Below are positions 41,703 to 51,188 of a DNA stretch of 52,339 nt, one piece after another. The position numbers and the translations under genes are program-made. The stretch comes from Chitinophagales bacterium (GTDB taxonomy: Bacteria; Bacteroidota; Bacteroidia; Chitinophagales; Chitinophagaceae), in contig JAURIR010000007.1 in assembly GCA_030832645.1 (NCBI GenBank), forward strand, positions 1-52,339. The letters run 5' to 3'. Position 1 is the first letter of the stretch. Every line of letters starts with the position of its first letter. Below the pieces are notes generated by a model that did no database searches, had not been told where the DNA came from, and saw only the letters and a program-made list of their open reading frames with translations.

Positions 41703-43901
41703 ATGATCAAAAAGCTACTTCAACAATTGGCCATCATCATTCAGGTGGGTAGAACTTTTTTCCCCAGTATTCTACTCTTGACCATTGCCTATGCTTTTTT
41801 CAAAGACTTTGTACAAGGTAAAGACATCATTCTAACAGGACTCCAATCTCGGCAAACAAGTTTTTTCTTTTTGGTGGGGCTACTTTTTTGGGTGCTGATC
41901 ACCTGGTATACATCCAGACTGATAGCGTACAATCATGACAGACTTTTCCTAATTGCTAAAAAAGGATTGTATCATACACCGAGAATTTTAGGGTATCTGT
42001 GCTTTACCGTCATCTTACTTTCGTTTACCGCTCTTTACCCGGCCTTTGATAATTTTTATATTCATATAGGTATTCTAGTATTGAATCTGATAGTGTATGG
42101 TGTACTTCAGCATTTTTTTGAAATTATAAAAAATAGAAAGCGAAGAGAATTACTGATACGCTTCAGAATAATAACGTGGGTAGCATTCATTTTGATTATT
42201 GCCGTTATGGTTGTAGTAAATAAAGTACAAACCTATATTTACTTATTACCGGTTCTGCAAACAGGTTATTTATACCTCGTCATCACCCGAAGAAAGATCA
42301 GTGAATCCAGCACCAAACACTCTAAAATCCCCTCCTGGTGGGCGCTGACAACATCCAGAGATAAATACAGGCAATTCATTACTTGGATATTTACAGATCC
42401 CGCCAGTAGAAAAGAACCCGTTCAAAGTGATGTAGTGATACAAACAGAAAAGAACATATTTTCTTTGTTTCTACTATTTTCTATTTCTGCATTGATCATC
42501 TATCTAAACGCAGTGCTCAATATCCATTTTGCACGATTTATAAGTCCCCTACCCATCATTTTACTTTCATTTGGAGTATTGTTGGGAGCAGGAAATATCC
42601 TGTCGTTGTTATCCACAAAACTTCAAATCAATTTTCACTTTCTTTTCATTGCAGGATTGATCATCACTGGATACTTCGTTGAAACACATGGTGTAGCAAT
42701 TCATAGAAAGTCGTCTCCATTCATTGATTATTCTAAACGCACTACGCTCAGAAATAAATTCGTTCAGTGGTTGGATACGAAAGGGAATGAATGGAGAGAT
42801 AGCTCCAACTATACGTTGCCGGTATATTTTGTAATTGCGGATGGAGGTGCCTCCAGATCGGCGTATTGGACTGCATCTGTACTTTCTACATTGGAAACTG
42901 AAACGAATGGAAATTTTTCCAAGCACTTATTTTGTTTATCGGGGGCATCGGGTGGAAGTTTTGGCAACATGGTTTTTTACGGAAGCCTCTACGGAATAAA
43001 TGAAAACCGAACAGAAAAAATTCAATCGTATTTGTCGAGTGATTTCTTAAGTTTCCCTTTGGCCAGACTACTGGGGCCTGATTTGGTCATTCCATTTATT
43101 CCAGGTGTCCGATCTGGAGACAGGGCTAGGGCGTTGGAAATATCAATGGAAAATACCGGAAAGAAAGATTCGCTGAGCAGGTTCATGAGGAAAGATATTT
43201 CAGAAATTGTTTTCAGCAACAATAGAGATTTCAATCCAATCATTGCAATCAATGCAACCAGAATGCAAGACGGAGCCCCAGGGGTCATAAGCAATATTCG
43301 ATTGGAAAATGAAGTTTCCGGGAAAAGAATTGATATCCTTGGACTCTTAGAAAAAGACGAGTCCATTCATATCTCTACTGCTGTGGTTCTGGGAGCAAGG
43401 TTTCCTTATTTCAGTCCTGCTGGAAGAATAAAAGATCAATACTTTGTAGACGGAGGATATTTTGATAACTCTGGAAGTGGCATCGTACATGAAATGATAT
43501 TAGATCTGCAACAGATGATTACTGATACCCTAAAAGCGAATTCTCTGCATCCTTTCAAAAAAATTCGTTTCCATGTAGTACACATTAGTAACCAAACTGA
43601 AAAAAAAGATCAACTTAGGAAGATACATCCATTGGTAAACGATCTGGCTGCTCCTATTAAAACCATCATGGGTTCCTATGCGAGTCAAACAGATTTCAAT
43701 AACCTGCGGCTCAATAAATATCTAATGGAATTATACAAAGGAGATACCACCTTCCGAATCATTAACCTCTATAAAAAAGACGAAGCCAATTACTTCCCTA
43801 TGAACTGGTCGATTTCAGATTCTTCGCTTAAGAAAATGAATCAGCGATTGATTAATAATGTGGAAATCAAAGCAATGATTCATGAATTGTCTACTCACTA
43901 A
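41703..43901 (+). CDS. Membrane-anchored patatin-like phospholipase
   Basis: 732 residues. The N-terminal half (1-335) has about nine hydrophobic segments. The C-terminal half is patatin-like: ADGGASRSAYWTASVL (oxyanion Gly-rich region), nucleophile elbow G-A-S416-G-G (GXSXG) and catalytic Asp583 in DGGYFDNSG. Both dyad residues are intact, so it is a probable lipase or phospholipase acting at the membrane. Similar multi-pass patatins exist in Bacteroidota; substrate unknown. It is 6 bases after obg with an AAAGGG ribosome site, so translation is likely coupled. It overlaps cysS by 4 bases at the 3' end. Confidence 0.9.
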   Translation: MIKKLLQQLAIIIQVGRTFFPSILLLTIAYAFFKDFVQGKDIILTGLQSRQTSFFFLVGLLFWVLITWYTSRLIAYNHDRLFLIAKKGLYHTPRILGYLCFTVILLSFTALYPAFDNFYIHIGILVLNLIVYGVLQHFFEIIKNRKRRELLIRFRIITWVAFILIIAVMVVVNKVQTYIYLLPVLQTGYLYLVITRRKISESSTKHSKIPSWWALTTSRDKYRQFITWIFTDPASRKEPVQSDVVIQTEKNIFSLFLLFSISALIIYLNAVLNIHFARFISPLPIILLSFGVLLGAGNILSLLSTKLQINFHFLFIAGLIITGYFVETHGVAIHRKSSPFIDYSKRTTLRNKFVQWLDTKGNEWRDSSNYTLPVYFVIADGGASRSAYWTASVLSTLETETNGNFSKHLFCLSGASGGSFGNMVFYGSLYGINENRTEKIQSYLSSDFLSFPLARLLGPDLVIPFIPGVRSGDRARALEISMENTGKKDSLSRFMRKDISEIVFSNNRDFNPIIAINATRMQDGAPGVISNIRLENEVSGKRIDILGLLEKDESIHISTAVVLGARFPYFSPAGRIKDQYFVDGGYFDNSGSGIVHEMILDLQQMITDTLKANSLHPFKKIRFHVVHISNQTEKKDQLRKIHPLVNDLAAPIKTIMGSYASQTDFNNLRLNKYLMELYKGDTTFRIINLYKKDEANYFPMNWSISDSSLKKMNQRLINNVEIKAMIHELSTH

Positions 43902-45415
43902 AGCAGTTCCCAACTCATGTTTCCGTCTTTTTCATCCTTCAGCTGTATACCCGCGCTCAATAATTGATTCCTGATTTTATCCGAGGTAGCGAAATCTTTT
44001 CTGGAACGAGCATCTTTACGTATTTCTCCAATCAATTGCAGTACAGCAGAAAGCTTATCGGTATCCTGTTTGTTTTCATCAGTCAATCCAAATATGTCTT
44101 CGAGGTAAAGCTTGAATTGATCTTTTAGGAATTGAAATGTAGTTGCAGAAAGAGCTACTTTTTTAATGTTTCCGTCTTTTATAGAATTGATGACAGGCAC
44201 CAATTCAAATAATCCTGCCAATACTTTTGCAGTATTCAAATCTTCGTTCATGTCGGCCTGTAAGGCATGTAAGATAGTATTGACTTTCTTATCCAGCTCA
44301 TCATCCCCTGCCGACTTTACTTCAATATCAACAGTAACTTTTCTCAAATACGTATATGCTTCCCAGATACGCTTCAAACCTTTCTCTGCTGCCTGCAATG
44401 CTTCGTTACTGAAATCGAGGGTGCTTCTATAATGTGTTTGAAGTATGAAAAAGCGAACCGTCATCGGCGAAAACCCTTGTGTCAAAATTTCGTGTGTACC
44501 AGAAAATAGTTCGCTCAGTTTGATGACATTGTTATAGCTCTTGCCCATCTTCTTGCCATTGATGGTAATCATATTATTATGCAACCAGTACCTGGCAGGT
44601 ATTTTATGATTGCAAACTGCACTTTGAGCGATCTCGCATTCGTGGTGAGGAAATTGTAAGTCCATACCGCCTCCATGAATATCAAATTCTTCTCCCAAAT
44701 ACTTCGTACTCATTGCAGAGCATTCGATGTGCCATCCCGGAAATCCAATACCCCAAGGGCTTTGCCAGCGCATGATGTGTTCGGGCGCTGCATTTTTCCA
44801 AAGTGCAAAATCTGTTTTATTCCTTTTCTCGTCTTGAGATTCCAATTCTCTCGTAGTTTCCAATTGCTCATCCAAGACACGTCCACTCAAGATGCCGTAG
44901 GGCATTCCGTTCTTTCCAAAATGGTTGTGGTATTTGTCAACATCAAAATATACAGACCCGTTCACTACATAAGCATATCCATCTTGAATGATTTTCTCAA
45001 TCATCACAATCTGCTCAACAATATGGCCGGTTGCCGTTGGCTCAATGCTTGGCTCAAGATTATTGAACGCACGCATAGCCCAATGAAACAAGTTGGTATA
45101 CTTTTGAACCAACTCCATGGGTTCCATTTTCTCGAGCACTGCCTTTTTTGAAATTTTATCCTCGCTCTCCCTTCCCTCCTCTTCGAAATGCCCGGCGTCT
45201 GTTATATTACGCACATACCTCACTTGGTATCCAAGATGCTTGAGATAGCGAAATACAATATCAAAGGTGATAAATGGACGTGCATGGCCAAGATGACTTT
45301 CACCACTTACGGTAGGTCCGCATACATACATACCAACTTTACCAGGAATAATAGATGTGAAAACTTCCTTTTCTCTTGTCAGCGAATTATAAAATTGCAA
45401 AGAAGACATATTCAT
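43898..45415 (-). CDS. cysS: Cysteine-tRNA ligase
   Basis: 505 residues from the ATG at 45415; an ATG at 45409 is equally possible. Class I synthetase: zinc ligands C32, C232, H257 and E261, HIGH as HLGH (41-44), and KMSKS as KMGKS (289-293). The C-terminal helical region contains the family anticodon-binding DALR-like part. Length is normal for the larger bacterial type. Upstream -7 box is TATCTTTG. Confidence 0.97.
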   Translation of the reverse strand: MNMSSLQFYNSLTREKEVFTSIIPGKVGMYVCGPTVSGESHLGHARPFITFDIVFRYLKHLGYQVRYVRNITDAGHFEEEGRESEDKISKKAVLEKMEPMELVQKYTNLFHWAMRAFNNLEPSIEPTATGHIVEQIVMIEKIIQDGYAYVVNGSVYFDVDKYHNHFGKNGMPYGILSGRVLDEQLETTRELESQDEKRNKTDFALWKNAAPEHIMRWQSPWGIGFPGWHIECSAMSTKYLGEEFDIHGGGMDLQFPHHECEIAQSAVCNHKIPARYWLHNNMITINGKKMGKSYNNVIKLSELFSGTHEILTQGFSPMTVRFFILQTHYRSTLDFSNEALQAAEKGLKRIWEAYTYLRKVTVDIEVKSAGDDELDKKVNTILHALQADMNEDLNTAKVLAGLFELVPVINSIKDGNIKKVALSATTFQFLKDQFKLYLEDIFGLTDENKQDTDKLSAVLQLIGEIRKDARSRKDFATSDKIRNQLLSAGIQLKDEKDGNMSWELL

Positions 45416-45426
45416 GTATATACCTG

Positions 45427-45434
45427 CAAAGATA
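45427..45434 (-). promoter_or_regulatory. Probable -7 box for cysS
   Basis: TATCTTTG on the minus strand fits TAnnTTTG; the ATG follows 11 bases downstream. No good TTG at -33. Confidence 0.5.
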
Positions 45435-45469
45435 AAGATTGGCCATCACACCATCTACTTCTGTATTTG

Positions 45470-46621
45470 CTATGGAAGAGCAATATCAGCCAGCAGAAAG
45501 AAATGATCTGAAATGCCTACTCCACCTCGTTTGTACTGGATGGTAGTAAAATCAGCAGGATGAAAAACATAATCAATTCGCAGTGTTGGAATAGTTTTTA
45601 GCAAAAAAGAGAAAGAGCTGGTAAAGGTGGACCCCAAATAGGACCCCTTTTCTAAAAATGCATCTTTATGCTCTCCGCGAACAGACATGTACGCATACGA
45701 TCCTGGAACGTCGTTTAGATCACCCGCCAGAAGATATGGATAAGGCGATTCGTCTAAAATTTGTGTAAGGAAATCTGCTTGTGCCCCATGTACATCAAAC
45801 GTATTCTTCATCTTTTTAATGAGGTGTTTCGACTCGTCAACGTTTTCATCTATAGGGTTCTTCACTCTGCCCAGTGTTTTGTACTCGCGGCTTCCAAATC
45901 CAAATGATTGTAGATGGATGGAATAAACCCTAATGGTATCTCCATCTTTGATAATATCTGCATAAACAGTTGCCTCCGTATTATCTGCGTTTGAATGAGG
46001 AAATGGGATAATGCCCCCTTTTAAAATGGGGTATTTAGAAAAGATAGCTGTTCCGCTGTACTGATTGCTGTGAAATATATCCGATCCATCAAACTGATGG
46101 TGTGCATACCCATACTGATCTTTCAATACGGTAAAGGGATTACTTTTCTTCTCGTCTGGAAGCGAAATGAACTCCTGAAAACAAATTACATCAGGTTGAT
46201 ACAGCTCAATTTCCTTGAATACTTTTTTGATCTGGGCCTTACTTGCAGGCCTGAAATTATTTTCGTTGAAGGGAATAAAATGCCGAACGTTCCAACTCAT
46301 CAATCGCAATGCACCAGACGACTTAGTCGTGTTAAAACCAGCAGAAGTATGAAATGAAAAATTGAAATGAAATGTATATACTGATAGGAGAAGCGAAAAC
46401 AATGGAACCAATAGAAAACTTGACCATCTAAAAAGCCAGTAAAAAAATAACACCAATACAACAAAGAAAAGATAAGGGAAAAGCAAACTCATGAACCCAA
46501 TGAACCAAAATTGTTTGGGATGTATAAACGGAGAACAAGCACAGATCAGCAGTACGAAAACAATCGCCGATGTTAGGAGCTTCATCAGTATAGTAAAAAT
46601 GCTGTTGGACTTGGACCTCAT
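45470..46621 (-). CDS. Membrane-anchored endonuclease/exonuclease/phosphatase-family protein
   Basis: 383 residues. Three N-terminal membrane segments (about 12-32, 38-60 and 66-86) precede an EEP catalytic domain: MSWNVRHF with Asn111, CFQEF with Glu150, LAGDLNDVPGS (Asp-Asn), RIDYVF and SDHFFLL with Asp372/His373. All metal-site residues are intact. The orientation suggests a domain outside the cytoplasm. Substrate could be nucleic acid, phospholipid or an inositol phosphate. It begins 6 bases after the rhomboid-like gene stop, so it is co-transcribed with the rhomboid pair. Confidence 0.9.
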   Translation of the reverse strand: MRSKSNSIFTILMKLLTSAIVFVLLICACSPFIHPKQFWFIGFMSLLFPYLFFVVLVLFFYWLFRWSSFLLVPLFSLLLSVYTFHFNFSFHTSAGFNTTKSSGALRLMSWNVRHFIPFNENNFRPASKAQIKKVFKEIELYQPDVICFQEFISLPDEKKSNPFTVLKDQYGYAHHQFDGSDIFHSNQYSGTAIFSKYPILKGGIIPFPHSNADNTEATVYADIIKDGDTIRVYSIHLQSFGFGSREYKTLGRVKNPIDENVDESKHLIKKMKNTFDVHGAQADFLTQILDESPYPYLLAGDLNDVPGSYAYMSVRGEHKDAFLEKGSYLGSTFTSSFSFLLKTIPTLRIDYVFHPADFTTIQYKRGGVGISDHFFLLADIALP

Positions 46622-46627
46622 GATCGT

Positions 46628-47533
46628 TTATAGATCTTTTTTACTTGCTTGTTTTAAAAAGTCCTTCTCTTCCTCTGTCAATTTATCGTACCCGAATTGA
46701 TTGATTTTATCTAATAATTCATCGACTCTCTTCTGCGTAAGATTGGGCTTTTTTACAAAAGGTTTTTTATTACCCTGGTCATAAAAAGAATGTTGCTTCG
46801 TCGTCCTTACCTTCTTTTTTCCGGGTGTAAGAAAATGTACTACCCGATTATAGAGAGTAATCATCCAGGCACCAGGATCAACCCCACTCTGCATGATGCG
46901 TACATAAAGAAATCCTGTTACGATACCTACCGCTTGTGGAATAAGGGATATAGCTCCGCCACTTGTGCCCAGGTTCAGAAAGAGATATACAACGGAAATA
47001 ATCCACAATGGTATACCGCCTCCAATCATCGGAAAGATTTTATATTTCGGGGCAATGGTAGTAGCTGCTGCTGCCATTCCCAAAATACCCGGAATGATGC
47101 CATTGAAATAAGAAATGCCAACAACATCACGCTGAAAAATATTCGTTGACAATATAAAAACGAACCCTGCAAAAAAACTGCTATAGACATAGACCGGAAA
47201 AATCTTCTCACCTCCCACCAAATCTTGAATCAAGAAACCAAACATCCACGTCCAAATCAAATTACTGATCACCATGATCAATCTGACTTCGGAAAATTGC
47301 ATAGTGATAAAGGTCCAGGGTCTGGTAAGAAATTTTTCAGGATCTGCAGATAGAATAGACCAGTAATAAATGTTGCGGTAAAACGATTCGGGGTCCATTC
47401 TCGAAAAAGTATAGATACTCTTGATGAAATTGAGTCCCACAAAAAACATTGCCTGAACAATGATCAACATCAACAATGGATTGTTGGTATCCCATTTTGT
47501 TGATGCGCCGTAATATCTGTTGGAGCCTGTCAT
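46628..47533 (-). CDS. Rhomboid-family protein lacking catalytic residues
   Basis: 301 residues. Clear relationship to the upstream rhomboid: RPWTFITMQFSEVRLIMVISNLIWTWMFG aligns with HPWQFITYMFLHSSESFFHILFNMFALWMFG. The His of the HxxxN motif is replaced, while Asn91 is kept. The GASG nucleophile segment reads GIIPGILG, and the C-terminal HxxHLGG segment reads LIPQAVG, so both Ser and His are gone. It is a pseudoprotease, as iRhoms are. The C-terminal soluble tail (RVDELLDKINQFGYDKLTEEEKDFLKQAS) is common in this phylum. It could bind a substrate or modulate the active partner (inference). One base separates it from the rhomboid upstream. Confidence 0.88.
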   Translation of the reverse strand: MTGSNRYYGASTKWDTNNPLLMLIIVQAMFFVGLNFIKSIYTFSRMDPESFYRNIYYWSILSADPEKFLTRPWTFITMQFSEVRLIMVISNLIWTWMFGFLIQDLVGGEKIFPVYVYSSFFAGFVFILSTNIFQRDVVGISYFNGIIPGILGMAAAATTIAPKYKIFPMIGGGIPLWIISVVYLFLNLGTSGGAISLIPQAVGIVTGFLYVRIMQSGVDPGAWMITLYNRVVHFLTPGKKKVRTTKQHSFYDQGNKKPFVKKPNLTQKRVDELLDKINQFGYDKLTEEEKDFLKQASKKDL

Positions 47534-47534
47534 A

Positions 47535-48230
47535 TTAATAGAAGTGTCTTCTGTTGTTTCTGTTCCAGATCATTACAATCAATATTCCTACAGCAGCACC
47601 TCCCAAGTGTGCAAAATGAGCAATGCCGGTTGACTGACTGGAAACGCCACCCATTAAGTCTAACACAGCCAATCCCAATAATGCCCATTTGGCTTTGATT
47701 GGAAACGGGATGGGCAAGATGATCATTTGACTGTTAGGAAATGTGTAAGCGAAGGCTGCGAAAATGCCCATCACAGCACCGGAAGCTCCCAACGTAGGAA
47801 TATTCGCCATGAGGTAAAGTTCTTCTGCAGAAATTTTTCCTGCATTAAACAGTGCGGTGTACTGCGAGATATCATACGTAAGTGCAAATGCCTGGGTAAT
47901 TCCTGCTCCCAACCCACATACCAGATAAAAAATCAGGAAACGACCCGGTCCCCATAAATTTTCAAGGGTAGAACCAAACATCCAAAGCGCGAACATATTG
48001 AATAGGATATGAAAAAACGACTCGGAAGAATGCAAAAACATATAGGTAATGAACTGCCAAGGATGATAAAATTGCGAACTAAAATGATGCAATGCAAAAA
48101 GGTCTTCGATGGAAATCAAGTCTTGCCCAATGGTGATTTGTGCCAACCAGACCAGTCCATTGATAATGATGAGATTCTTTATTACTACTGGTAAAACCTG
48201 AAACCTACCCGGCCTGATGTCTGAATCCAT
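47535..48230 (-). CDS. Rhomboid intramembrane serine protease (active type)
   Basis: 231 residues with about six to seven membrane segments. The catalytic Ser150 is in GASGAVMG and the general base His208 in HFAHLGG; the oxyanion His74/Asn78 are in HILFNMF. It cleaves transmembrane substrates within the lipid bilayer, near helix-breaking residues. The paired degenerate rhomboid follows by one base on the same strand and the EEP gene after that. Confidence 0.95.
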   Translation of the reverse strand: MDSDIRPGRFQVLPVVIKNLIIINGLVWLAQITIGQDLISIEDLFALHHFSSQFYHPWQFITYMFLHSSESFFHILFNMFALWMFGSTLENLWGPGRFLIFYLVCGLGAGITQAFALTYDISQYTALFNAGKISAEELYLMANIPTLGASGAVMGIFAAFAYTFPNSQMIILPIPFPIKAKWALLGLAVLDLMGGVSSQSTGIAHFAHLGGAAVGILIVMIWNRNNRRHFY

Positions 48231-48246
48231 ATGATTGATTGATCCA

Positions 48247-48254
48247 CAAAATTA
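48247..48254 (-). promoter_or_regulatory. Probable -7 box for the rhomboid operon
   Basis: TAATTTTG on the minus strand fits TAnnTTTG, with a TTG 23 bases upstream of it inside the end of rlmD. The rhomboid ATG (48230) follows about 16 bases after the box. Confidence 0.55.
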
Positions 48255-48265
48255 ACGAACCTGAC

Positions 48266-49705
48266 TCAATGTATCTTCAACTTCATTTGAACTACATTCT
48301 CTATATGGTGCGTATGAGGGAACATATCTACAGGTTTTACTGCAGTTACCTCGTATTTCTCAGCAAGTAGGTTCAAATCGCGTGCCTGCGTAGCGGGGTT
48401 ACAGCTGACATACACCACCAACGGTGCTTCCATACGAAGAATCTGATCGATCAATTTTTCGTGCATCCCAGCCCTGGGCGGATCAGTAATAATTACATCC
48501 GGACGACCGTGTTGTATAAAAAAATCGTCGTTACAAACACTGGAAACATCTCCTGCATAAAAGAGGGCGTTCGAAATACCATTCAATGCAACATTTTCGT
48601 TTGCATCTTGTATTGCCTCGTCTATCAATTCAACGCCGATTACTTTTTTTGCTTTATCACTAACAAATATTCCAATACTACCAGTACCACAGTATAAATC
48701 GTACACTACTTCATTGCCTGTTAATGCGGCAAAATCTTTTGTAATCTGATAAAGTGTTTCCGCTTGCTTGGTATTGGTTTGAAAAAATGATTTGGGACTA
48801 ATTTTAAATTTCAGGGCGCCTAATTTTTCAATTGCATACGCATTGCCATTGTACAAAATGGGAGTTTGGTCAAAAATACTATCGTTGAATTTTTTATTGA
48901 TGGTATAATAGAGAGATGTAATCTGAGGAAAAGTAGTTTTCAAAAATTCCATCACTTCATTGATAGACGACATTTCTTCTTCTCCAAAAACTACATTCAC
49001 CATGAGGTCTCCTGCAGTACAACTGCGTATCATGAGATTGCGCATCAAACCAACATGGTTTCGGATATCATAATAAGAGAACCCTTTTTGTAGAACAAAC
49101 TTTCTCAATGCATTTCTGATTTCATTGCTGGGCGCTGGTTGCAAAAAACATTCATCGATGTCAATCACTTTATCAAAAGCACCGGGTACATGAAAACCCA
49201 GAGCAGGAATGGAAGGCAACCCCAGCCTCTCTCCTTCCGGCAGTTGAAGAGCAACTATTTCTTCGGTGGTGAAATATTTTTTTGAACTGAATGTAAATTC
49301 GAGTTTATTCCTGTAGAACCTGGTTTCACTTGCAGATGCGATTTCTTGGATGGGCGGAATGGCTAGCTTACCAATGCGCTTGAGGTGTTGCTCAACTTCT
49401 TCCTGTTTGTACATTGCTTGTTTCTCATACGGAAGCATTTGCCATTTACACCCGCCGCACACTCCGAAATGTTTGCAAAATGGGACAACTCTGTCTTGTG
49501 AAGGCCGATGAAGATGCTGCACGATGCCTTCGGCCCAATCTTTTTTGTTTTTGATAATTTTCACATCCACCACGTCTCCAGGTACAGCCCCTTCGATAAA
49601 AATTACTTTTCCATCTTTTTTGGCAATGGATTTCCCACCTGCGGCATACGCAACTACTTCCAATTCGAACATCACAGGGAGCTTTTTCCTTCTCATATTT
49701 ACCAT
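48266..49705 (-). CDS. rlmD: 23S rRNA (uracil-5-)-methyltransferase RlmD-type
   Basis: 479 residues. TRAM domain (about 12-70), then a [4Fe-4S] set C77, C83, C86 and C186 (CKHFGVCGGCKWQ and DIDECFLQP). The SAM-binding methyltransferase domain has DLYCGTGSIGIFVSD and TDPPRAGMHE. The catalytic Cys435 is in VSCNPATQARDL. It methylates a uridine in 23S rRNA; RlmCD-type dual activity cannot be excluded. An alternative ATG three codons in (49696) is possible. Confidence 0.93.
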   Translation of the reverse strand: MVNMRRKKLPVMFELEVVAYAAGGKSIAKKDGKVIFIEGAVPGDVVDVKIIKNKKDWAEGIVQHLHRPSQDRVVPFCKHFGVCGGCKWQMLPYEKQAMYKQEEVEQHLKRIGKLAIPPIQEIASASETRFYRNKLEFTFSSKKYFTTEEIVALQLPEGERLGLPSIPALGFHVPGAFDKVIDIDECFLQPAPSNEIRNALRKFVLQKGFSYYDIRNHVGLMRNLMIRSCTAGDLMVNVVFGEEEMSSINEVMEFLKTTFPQITSLYYTINKKFNDSIFDQTPILYNGNAYAIEKLGALKFKISPKSFFQTNTKQAETLYQITKDFAALTGNEVVYDLYCGTGSIGIFVSDKAKKVIGVELIDEAIQDANENVALNGISNALFYAGDVSSVCNDDFFIQHGRPDVIITDPPRAGMHEKLIDQILRMEAPLVVYVSCNPATQARDLNLLAEKYEVTAVKPVDMFPHTHHIENVVQMKLKIH

Positions 49706-49748
49706 TGATTTATAAAGTTATTGAATAATTTAGCGGAAAGTAGTCTAC

Positions 49749-51188
49749 ATGAGATCAGTTGTATTTTGTATAGCATACATCCTAAGCAGTTGCATCGGTT
49801 TTGCGCAATCCAGCTACGAAATAAAAGCGAATATCAAACCTTTCAATAAAGGGTATCTCTACTTGGCCTATCATTTTGGGAACAAACAATACCTGATCGA
49901 TTCAGCTAAGATTGAACCCTCTGGCGATGCGGTCTTCAGCGGAACTAAAAAATTACAAGGGGGTGTTTACCTGGTTGTTTTCCCGGAGAAAAATGGTTGG
50001 GTAGAATGCATGGTCGACAAAGAGTTGAAATTTTCACTAAAAGCAGATACCAGCAATCTTCTCCAATCTCTTCGATTTGAAAACTCTGTCGACAATACCG
50101 TCTTCACCGAATACCAACAAACATCTTTTGAGATCGGAACAAAGATGAACGAGTTGCGGAAAACAATGACAGGTAAAGCAGGTGACCCCGGATACGATTC
50201 GGTGAATAATCAAATCAAAAAAATGGGTCAATCCATGCAAGACTACAGAAATAACTTGCAGAAAAAATATCCAAACAGTTTACTTACTGCCATTTTCTAC
50301 CTCTTGAAAGATCCTGAAATTCCACCGGCCTCACAGCACCCGAAAGGAAAATACGATAGCGTATACGCATACAACTATTACAAAAATCATTTTTGGGATG
50401 GTATCAGTTTTACCGACGAACGCTTAATTAGAACACCTGTACTACAGGGAAAATTCGACAGGTACTACGATGAAGTGTTGCCCCAAATTCCTGATTCACT
50501 GATAACATATGCAGATAAAATGCTGCAGGCTTCAAAAGCAAACGAAGAAATGTTCAAGTTCTTTTTATCGAGTCTTACCGATAAATATGTGAATCCCAAG
50601 TACATGGGGCAAGATGCAGTATTCGTTCACCTGTTTGAGAAATATTTTTTAACCGGACAAGCTGATACTTGGATGAACGAGCAATATAAAAAATTTGTAT
50701 TCGACCGTGGATACTCGTTGATGTCCAACCGAATTGGCTTGAAAGCATCAGAATTGCAAATGGTAGATACATTGGGAAGGCCCTTCCTTTTGAGTGCTGT
50801 TCAGGCACCCTTTACAGTGATCTGTTTTTGGGATCCTACATGTGGGCACTGCAAAGAGGAGGTTCCAAAAATGGATTCTATCTTCCAAGCTAAATGGAGA
50901 AAAAACGGAGTAAAATTAATTGGCGTCATGGTGGATGGCGGTAAACAAAACTGGTTGAAGTTCATCAAAGAACATAACCTGGTTGGCTGGACACATATCT
51001 ATCAAACAGACGAAACAAAAGATAAAATTTATAAAGCAGGTAACCCCGGATTCCGTCAATTGTACGATGTATATCAAACCCCCATGGTGTATCTGTTAGA
51101 CAACAACAAAAACATCATTGCAAAAAAACTCAGCTACTTGCAATTGGACGACTTCATGGAAGCCAAGAAAAAATCTCAGCAGAAATAA
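49749..51188 (+). CDS. TlpA/DUF4369-type thiol-disulfide oxidoreductase
   Basis: 479 residues with signal peptide (about 1-20, CIGFAQ/S). An N-terminal DUF4369-like beta domain (about 22-125, with KGYLYLAYHFGNKQYLIDSAKIEPSGDAVFSGTKKLQGGVYLVVF) and a helical middle domain (about 125-330) precede a thioredoxin fold. CxxC is C365-C368 in WDPTCGHCKEEVP, and the cis-Pro region is TPMVYLLD. Such proteins are periplasmic in Bacteroidota and probably reduce or isomerise disulfides in exported proteins. A TAATTTAG near 49725 may be its -7 element, one base from consensus. Confidence 0.92.
   Translation: MRSVVFCIAYILSSCIGFAQSSYEIKANIKPFNKGYLYLAYHFGNKQYLIDSAKIEPSGDAVFSGTKKLQGGVYLVVFPEKNGWVECMVDKELKFSLKADTSNLLQSLRFENSVDNTVFTEYQQTSFEIGTKMNELRKTMTGKAGDPGYDSVNNQIKKMGQSMQDYRNNLQKKYPNSLLTAIFYLLKDPEIPPASQHPKGKYDSVYAYNYYKNHFWDGISFTDERLIRTPVLQGKFDRYYDEVLPQIPDSLITYADKMLQASKANEEMFKFFLSSLTDKYVNPKYMGQDAVFVHLFEKYFLTGQADTWMNEQYKKFVFDRGYSLMSNRIGLKASELQMVDTLGRPFLLSAVQAPFTVICFWDPTCGHCKEEVPKMDSIFQAKWRKNGVKLIGVMVDGGKQNWLKFIKEHNLVGWTHIYQTDETKDKIYKAGNPGFRQLYDVYQTPMVYLLDNNKNIIAKKLSYLQLDDFMEAKKKSQQK

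Follow-up and report, generated by a model that had tools for sequence, protein, structure and literature searches.

Repeated loss of the catalytic residues in a bacterial rhomboid encoded beside an active rhomboid protease

Two genes for rhomboid proteins lie side by side in the DNA analysed here, a stretch of 52,339 nucleotides from a Chitinophagales bacterium (GenBank assembly GCA_030832645.1, contig JAURIR010000007.1) that we call the window. The genome it belongs to consists of 246 contigs and 2.2 Mb, is 93% complete and 6% contaminated, and falls in the Chitinophagaceae, a large bacterial family of soil and water (family f1 in our numbering; loci are numbered with L and genomes with G). 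We refer to the two rhomboids as RhoA and RhoB. Together with the hydrolase gene that follows them, they comprise these features:

47535..48230, minus strand: RhoA, canonical rhomboid intramembrane serine protease, 231 aa (Pfam Rhomboid, invariant residues, model)
47781..47783, minus strand: RhoA Ser150, codon TCC, catalytic (sequence reading and alignment column tally)
47607..47609, minus strand: RhoA His208, codon CAC, catalytic (sequence reading and alignment column tally)
46628..47533, minus strand: RhoB, rhomboid fold without catalytic Ser and His, with a C-terminal tail, 301 aa (Pfam, model, fold match)
47273-47275, minus strand: RhoB Met87, at the position of the TM2 His (column tally)
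47261..47263, minus strand: RhoB Asn91, the TM2 Asn, kept (column tally)
47093..47095, minus strand: RhoB Ile147, codon ATT, at the position of the catalytic Ser (profile alignment, column tally)
46934..46936, minus strand: RhoB Gln200, codon CAA, at the position of the catalytic His (profile alignment, column tally)
46637..46741, minus strand: DUF6576 tail of RhoB, residues 265-299 (PF20216, model, conserved positions)
45470..46621, minus strand: EEP-family hydrolase, 383 aa, following RhoB in the same unit (Pfam Exo_endo_phos, 75.8 bits)

A single base (47534) separates the reading frames of RhoA and RhoB, and the EEP gene starts six bases past the RhoB stop. The original prediction for this locus had described such an arrangement, two rhomboids one base apart with an EEP hydrolase next, and its reading frame coordinates proved exact. 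A promoter and terminator scan of positions 45300-49900 was uninformative: it returned 8 sites resembling promoters, where shuffled sequence gave 13.1 on average, and 3 resembling terminators, where the shuffle mean was 3.5. In the window, as in the Hydrotalea locus L230, the rhomboid pair follows an RNA (uracil-5-)methyltransferase gene; in other orders of the Bacteroidota (L279, L304) it follows mutL. The window also encodes a multi-helix protein of 732 aa (41703-43901, plus strand) with a sub-threshold match to patatin-like phospholipases, 25.6 bits against a cut-off of 27.7.

RhoA carries the motifs GASG, with Ser150, and AHLGG, with His208, as well as the TM2 residues H74 and N78. These are invariant among the 39 RhoA sequences of alignment A3, which bears out the earlier reading that the first rhomboid keeps Ser150 and His208. 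The protein scores 104.6 bits with Pfam Rhomboid, and its structural model (pLDDT 91.7) matches GlpG (5f5k) with a Z of 19.1 and an rmsd of 2.8 over 168 aligned residues. All four active-site residues are present in each of the 176 complete RhoA proteins in our tally, 142 of 142 in the Chitinophagaceae and 34 of 34 outside the family. The tally holds 178 sequences in all, and the two incomplete ones are L114 (masked) and L116 (cut at a contig end).

An active rhomboid protease has the Ser of a GxSx motif and a His in TM6. In RhoB these positions are occupied by I147 and Q200. A profile-profile alignment (probability 99.8, E 1.2e-27) pairs S150 of RhoA with I147, within GIIPG, and H208 with Q200, within PQAVG, and so confirms the replacements of GASG and HxxHLGG that had been proposed from the sequence. 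The His/Asn oxyanion pair of TM2 is likewise incomplete, with Met87 in place of the His and Asn91 kept. The fold itself is retained. RhoB scores 33.9 bits with Pfam PF01694 Rhomboid, above the cut-off of 22.6, and its predicted structure (pLDDT 89.9, pTM 0.78) has the six helices of a rhomboid, matching GlpG (2xow) with a Z of 17.2 and an rmsd of 3.0 over 171 aligned residues. The fold search covered residues 12-218, i.e. RhoB without its tail, and in it the first clearly different fold appears at a Z of 5.5. The view that the second rhomboid retains its fold and one oxyanion Asn thus stands, given N91 and the match to GlpG.

The C-terminal tail of RhoB was absent from the original prediction. 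Residues 265-299 match DUF6576 (PF20216) with 35.1 bits against a cut-off of 27.3, and are modelled as a helical hairpin (267-280/287-298). The rhomboid topology established for GlpG would put this tail in the cytosol. Judged by its domain content, RhoB is a member of a rhomboid-DUF6576 family that extends across the Bacteroidota; DUF6576 was detected in 290 of the 296 genomes taken from the window's phylum versus one of 14 control genomes, that one being a Bacteroides. The domain can also be encoded by itself. In four f19 loci of about 3.1 kb each (L034, L035, L039 and L042) a stand-alone DUF6576 frame of 84-95 aa lies behind a DksA/TraR-like gene of 143-146 aa, and in L034, L039 and L042 it precedes an lspA-like gene, with gene names judged by eye from the translations. 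The tail may therefore be a mobile docking module.

How widespread is RhoB among the relatives of the window? Protein matches with an E of up to 0.001 were found in 36 of 40 relatives, 238 of 244 genomes of the family and 39 of 41 genomes of the same genus, and at least two of the 238 (G412 and G476) turned out to be RhoA. The same gene pair is found in named loci of Hydrotalea flava, Chitinophaga spp. and Sediminibacterium. The query of the family search was the dead RhoB, and therefore at least one representative was read for 95 of the 98 genera drawn; of the other three, g199 and g219 have no RhoB and g233 has a RhoA match alone. Within genera that hold several genomes the choice of genomes was not random. 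From the window's genus we read 37 of the 39 matched genomes, the remaining two (G574 and G576) being fragments. The resulting tally of catalytic residues covers 207 RhoB-type loci, 145 in the family and 62 outside it. It leaves out the paralogues L036, L040, L118 and L119, which are other than the syntenic RhoB, the duplicates of the window (L001, L003), a third rhomboid of its genome (L002) and L063, which is the same place as L162.

RhoB shares its domains with the wider rhomboid-DUF6576 family, whose members outside the Chitinophagaceae, however, keep both Ser and His in 60 of 62 loci. Five of these 62 are A-type-scoring single-rhomboid DUF6576 proteins (L142, L146, L158, L161 and L167); all five retain Ser and His, and therefore the count for the remaining outside loci is 55 of 57. 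The two exceptions, L162 (genome G270) and L152 (G203), are the Ser-less rhomboid-DUF6576 proteins outside the family. An A-type rhomboid precedes L162, and loss of catalysis may thus have happened outside the Chitinophagaceae too.

Within the family the picture is a patchwork. Ser and His are both present in 36 of the 145 RhoB proteins, His alone in 57, Ser alone in three and neither in 49, so that 109 are without Ser and/or His, and all four active-site residues are found in just 16. A representative with Ser and His occurs in at least one locus of 31 of the 95 genera. The Ser is gone in Hydrotalea flava (L230, GGGAAVMA) and in Sediminibacterium magnilacihabitans (L266, GAGAAVMA); in Chitinophaga sp. 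YR573 (L245) and C. pinensis (L263) GASA is present and the TM6 His is absent. Two genomes (L118 in G339 and L119 in G427, genus code g160) have, in addition to the syntenic dead RhoB, a further paralogue that resembles RhoB and whose GASA and AHxGGA motifs are intact.

Whether the loss is shared by close orthologues had been raised as a check from the beginning, and for the most part the close relatives do share it. Ser is missing in 34 of the 37 loci of the window's genus, and both residues are missing in 17; three relatives at 73-76% identity (L005, L006 and L120) have neither. On the other side, L018, L064 and L130 keep both, so inactivation is not required in this genus. The pairing of a dead with an active rhomboid that was first read from this one locus is real, with the amendment that the loss recurs across a whole family, beside a RhoA that is always intact.

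We counted the number of times that the Ser state has changed. On a tree of RhoA (124 rows) at least 22 changes are needed, and on a tree of RhoA and EEP (115 rows, with RhoB left out) at least 16. Both trees were built by a quick method and contain many weakly supported branches (in the RhoA tree 54 of the 121 inner branches are open), and for this reason we use the counts obtained after collapsing branches, which are 15 and 14 changes on the RhoA and EEP tree at a branch support of at least 80 and 95, respectively. A model that allows losses only requires 29 changes on this tree, or 21 and 18 at the same supports. As tree support is uneven, all of these counts are rough bounds. When branches below 80 are collapsed, randomly reassigned labels (200 shuffles) require 25-37 changes (mean 31) versus the 15 observed, so the Ser state is inherited within clades and yet changes often. 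That the Ser was lost just once in the window's genus, in its ancestor, is ruled out by the intact L018, L064 and L130 and by the patchiness of the wider family.

The dead copies are not free to drift. In one clade of the window's genus (L008-L012, L121 and L024) the Ser-less RhoB genes have a median dN/dS of 0.095 over 21 pairs, the highest pair reaching 0.173, a measurement that covers the dead copies of this genus alone; in the same clade RhoA has a median of 0.055 and EEP one of 0.106, each over 15 pairs. Among the nearest relatives of the window dS is near or at saturation, and of the six RhoB pairs the four that have a finite dS give a dN/dS of 0.048-0.076. With its catalytic residues gone and its gene under purifying selection, RhoB is a pseudoprotease, and this selection on dead copies argues that it has a function.

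The tail has been retained along with the fold. Counted by alignment columns, 103 of the 106 Ser-less RhoB proteins of the family still have at least five of the eight DUF6576 core residues; of the three exceptions, L024 and L027 stop at contig ends and L106 has an in-frame stop. The positions D271, L274, D275, K276, I277, G281, L285, E289 and L293 are 0.94 conserved in 34 dead copies of the same genus, and the commonest residues at these positions are identical in 55 intact relatives outside the family. Pfam finds DUF6576 in 54 of the 61 members of alignment A2. A regular-expression test for the tail on the same alignment was too strict and was set aside, calling 19 of 61 negative versus 7 of 61 by Pfam. 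Seven RhoB reading frames from named loci are short (234-272 aa) and apparently without a tail, among them Chitinophaga L245, L247 and L263. Gene order is similarly persistent. RhoA adjoins RhoB in 139 of the 142 family loci with enough flank, and EEP does so in 129 of the 139 with enough sequence downstream.

Could RhoB nevertheless be a decaying relic, or its substitutions errors of sequencing or assembly? The RhoB proteins of L004, L005, L006 and L120 share 72-77% identity versus 88-95% for RhoA, which would suit decay; their EEP proteins, however, share 68-74%. Three family matches (L101, L106 and L219) contain an in-frame stop. These observations have to be set against a dN/dS of about 0.1, frames that are open and full-length, and 106 Ser-less loci among the family's 145, drawn from different genomes and nearly all with the tail present. 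Recent decay or sequencing error is largely refuted by the dN/dS values and the breadth of the loss, and we consider it highly improbable. We conclude that RhoB is an old, selected and repeatedly evolved bacterial rhomboid pseudoprotease, because dN/dS is about 0.1, the tail is kept and the order RhoA-RhoB-EEP persists.

It is also very hard to believe that RhoB is still a hydrolase that employs other residues of the same cavity. The TM2 Asn is retained in 0.91 of the Ser-less RhoB proteins of the genus, and 14 of the 145 family members have a Thr at the Ser position, either of which could be read in favour of such an activity. However, that position is mostly taken by residues that are no nucleophiles, such as Gly, Ala, Asn and Val, and the His is also missing in 49 of the 106 Ser-less copies. 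With no consistent residue at the Ser position, we reject an alternative nucleophile.

If RhoB is a pseudoprotease, which protein does it work with? The original prediction gave the dead partner a regulatory or substrate-recruiting role next to the active one, and such a putative role is plausible. In its strict form, RhoB would be a regulatory subunit of RhoA, the two forming a heteromer in which the dead protein shapes substrate choice or restrains the active one. The spacing of one base in the window, the near-constant adjacency of the two genes in the family and a RhoA that is always intact are what this would lead us to expect. But in two genomes (G420 and G451) RhoB lies beside EEP and RhoA is on another contig, so the partner of RhoB need not be RhoA. 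In a third (G412, 89% complete) RhoA is kept, and RhoB and EEP are both undetected, within reach or elsewhere, with 1.5 kb behind RhoA readable. Nor was a fused RhoA-RhoB frame seen in the reading frame tables of the loci. A subunit of RhoA therefore seems an unlikely identity for RhoB.

Taken together, G420, G451 and G412 suggest that RhoB is more closely tied to EEP than to RhoA. RhoB might then serve the EEP hydrolase as a membrane scaffold or presenter of clients, with RhoA carried in the operon as a separate passenger. The frequent adjacency of EEP in the family fits this, as do the intact RhoB-EEP pair in G420 and G451 and the joint disappearance of both genes in G412. However, these are three genomes only. 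Two further candidates were discarded as evidence of partnership: G378 is missing RhoB and EEP, but its contig ends straight after RhoA, and G398 has no RhoB match and its EEP on another contig, with the RhoA contig ending about 350 bases on. Moreover, some Bacteroidales (L252 and L255) have RhoA followed directly by EEP with no RhoB between them, and outside the family EEP, searched for with the window's EEP as query, lies beside RhoB in 16 of 57 loci. We judge a dedicated service to EEP to be quite improbable. For comparison, outside the family RhoA is beside a RhoB-type gene in 32 of 53 testable loci. Within our set, L222 has a RhoA that is not adjacent to RhoB, and its EEP side is off the contig. 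The genome of the window contains one match to an FtsH-type (M41) protease, and its third rhomboid, L002, looks intact.

The best precedent for RhoB is the rhomboid YqgP (GluP) of Bacillus subtilis. According to the portions of PMC7231995 used here, the substitution S288A leaves its presentation of MgtE to FtsH in place, and this adaptor role requires an unoccupied active site and the cytosolic domain of the protein; the same portions term a pseudoprotease function in a bacterium unprecedented and see in it a hint to the evolutionary origin of pseudoproteases. YqgP, as portrayed there, combines a rhomboid groove with an accessory domain on the cytosolic side, as RhoB would, and its presentation of clients is independent of the catalytic Ser. 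It is, however, naturally active, its dead form being a laboratory mutant, whereas RhoB is naturally without Ser and His and stands beside an active rhomboid. The cytosolic domain is N-terminal in YqgP as those portions describe it and C-terminal (DUF6576) in RhoB, and the lineages differ, so that the parallel is one of analogy. A second B. subtilis rhomboid, YdcA, is reported in the same portions to have all rhomboid sequence hallmarks and undetectable protease activity (PMC7231995); it keeps the hallmarks that RhoB has lost.

Dead rhomboids are known as a kind from the iRhoms and Derlins (PMC12615303, in part), and the part of a mycobacterial survey considered here describes rhomboids that carry catalytic signatures (PMC2989971). 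A literature search that covered titles and the starts of abstracts of the papers listed, with subscription journals mostly outside it, found no naturally dead, selection-kept bacterial rhomboids; nor did we find literature on DUF6576, on intramembrane rhomboids of Chitinophaga or on inactive Bacteroidetes rhomboids, again with subscription journals mostly outside. The one paper that came up for pseudorhomboids and bacteria deals with ER-associated degradation. The Derlins (Derlin-1, Der1 and Dfm1) resemble RhoB in having a rhomboid fold without catalytic residues, and act in membrane quality control. They are, however, eukaryotic ER proteins, whereas RhoB is orthologous to active bacterial rhomboids. 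The RhoB model matches Derlin-1 (7czb) with a Z of 13.5 and an rmsd of 3.5 over 185 residues, and the active RhoA does so with a Z of 13.1, which reflects the shared superfamily fold only. Pfam includes a Derlin family, and at E up to 1, in a search whose HMMER filters drop weak matches, it is not listed for RhoB.

The iRhoms (iRhom1 and iRhom2) likewise have a dead rhomboid fold, and bind the transmembrane segments of their partners. RhoB matches iRhom1 (9xy4) with a Z of 15.0 and an rmsd of 4.5 over 191 residues; the active RhoA matches about equally (Z 15.8), so this shows fold and not kinship. The iRhoms have a large luminal domain between TM1 and TM2. RhoB has about 40 residues between the corresponding modelled helices (19-43 and 85-105) and, at 301 aa, has neither this domain nor the long cytosolic N-terminus of an iRhom, the origin of the two being independent.

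By analogy with these proteins, the function of RhoB would most likely be to bind membrane clients and hand them over without catalysis. We propose the following. The ancestor of RhoB would have been an ordinary active rhomboid of the Bacteroidota-wide rhomboid and DUF6576 family; in the Chitinophagaceae its gene stands immediately behind that of another rhomboid, RhoA, which is always active. This ancestral RhoB may already have had a second, non-proteolytic job, because of which its cutting activity could be lost repeatedly and the gene kept. Its active site was lost many times in this family, with the fold, the tail and the operon position retained. In the present-day protein, transmembrane segments of clients would be held uncut in the groove that formerly fed the active site, and the cytosolic DUF6576 hairpin would dock a partner that acts on the client, be it RhoA, FtsH or another membrane protease. 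That RhoB is a pseudoprotease which binds membrane clients uncut, with the hairpin docking a client-acting partner, is in our estimation about an even bet. More tentatively, we suggest that catalysis was lost many times (at least 14 changes, or at least 18 if it is never regained) from a protein with a pre-existing adaptor role, giving a Derlin-like client-handling system in the inner membrane, perhaps with the DUF6576 tail and EEP; this is possible, if somewhat doubtful in its entirety.

What is known of rhomboid pseudoproteases comes mainly from eukaryotes, and the present case bears on how they originate from active enzymes. One bacterial family displays the stages, from all four residues through Ser lost with His kept to both lost, with an active paralogue alongside. 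Matched pairs of active and dead RhoB could reveal the non-proteolytic job that was retained and the role of the DUF6576 tail. If our reading is true, the Chitinophagaceae would amount to an experiment, repeated by nature, on how a pseudoprotease is born.
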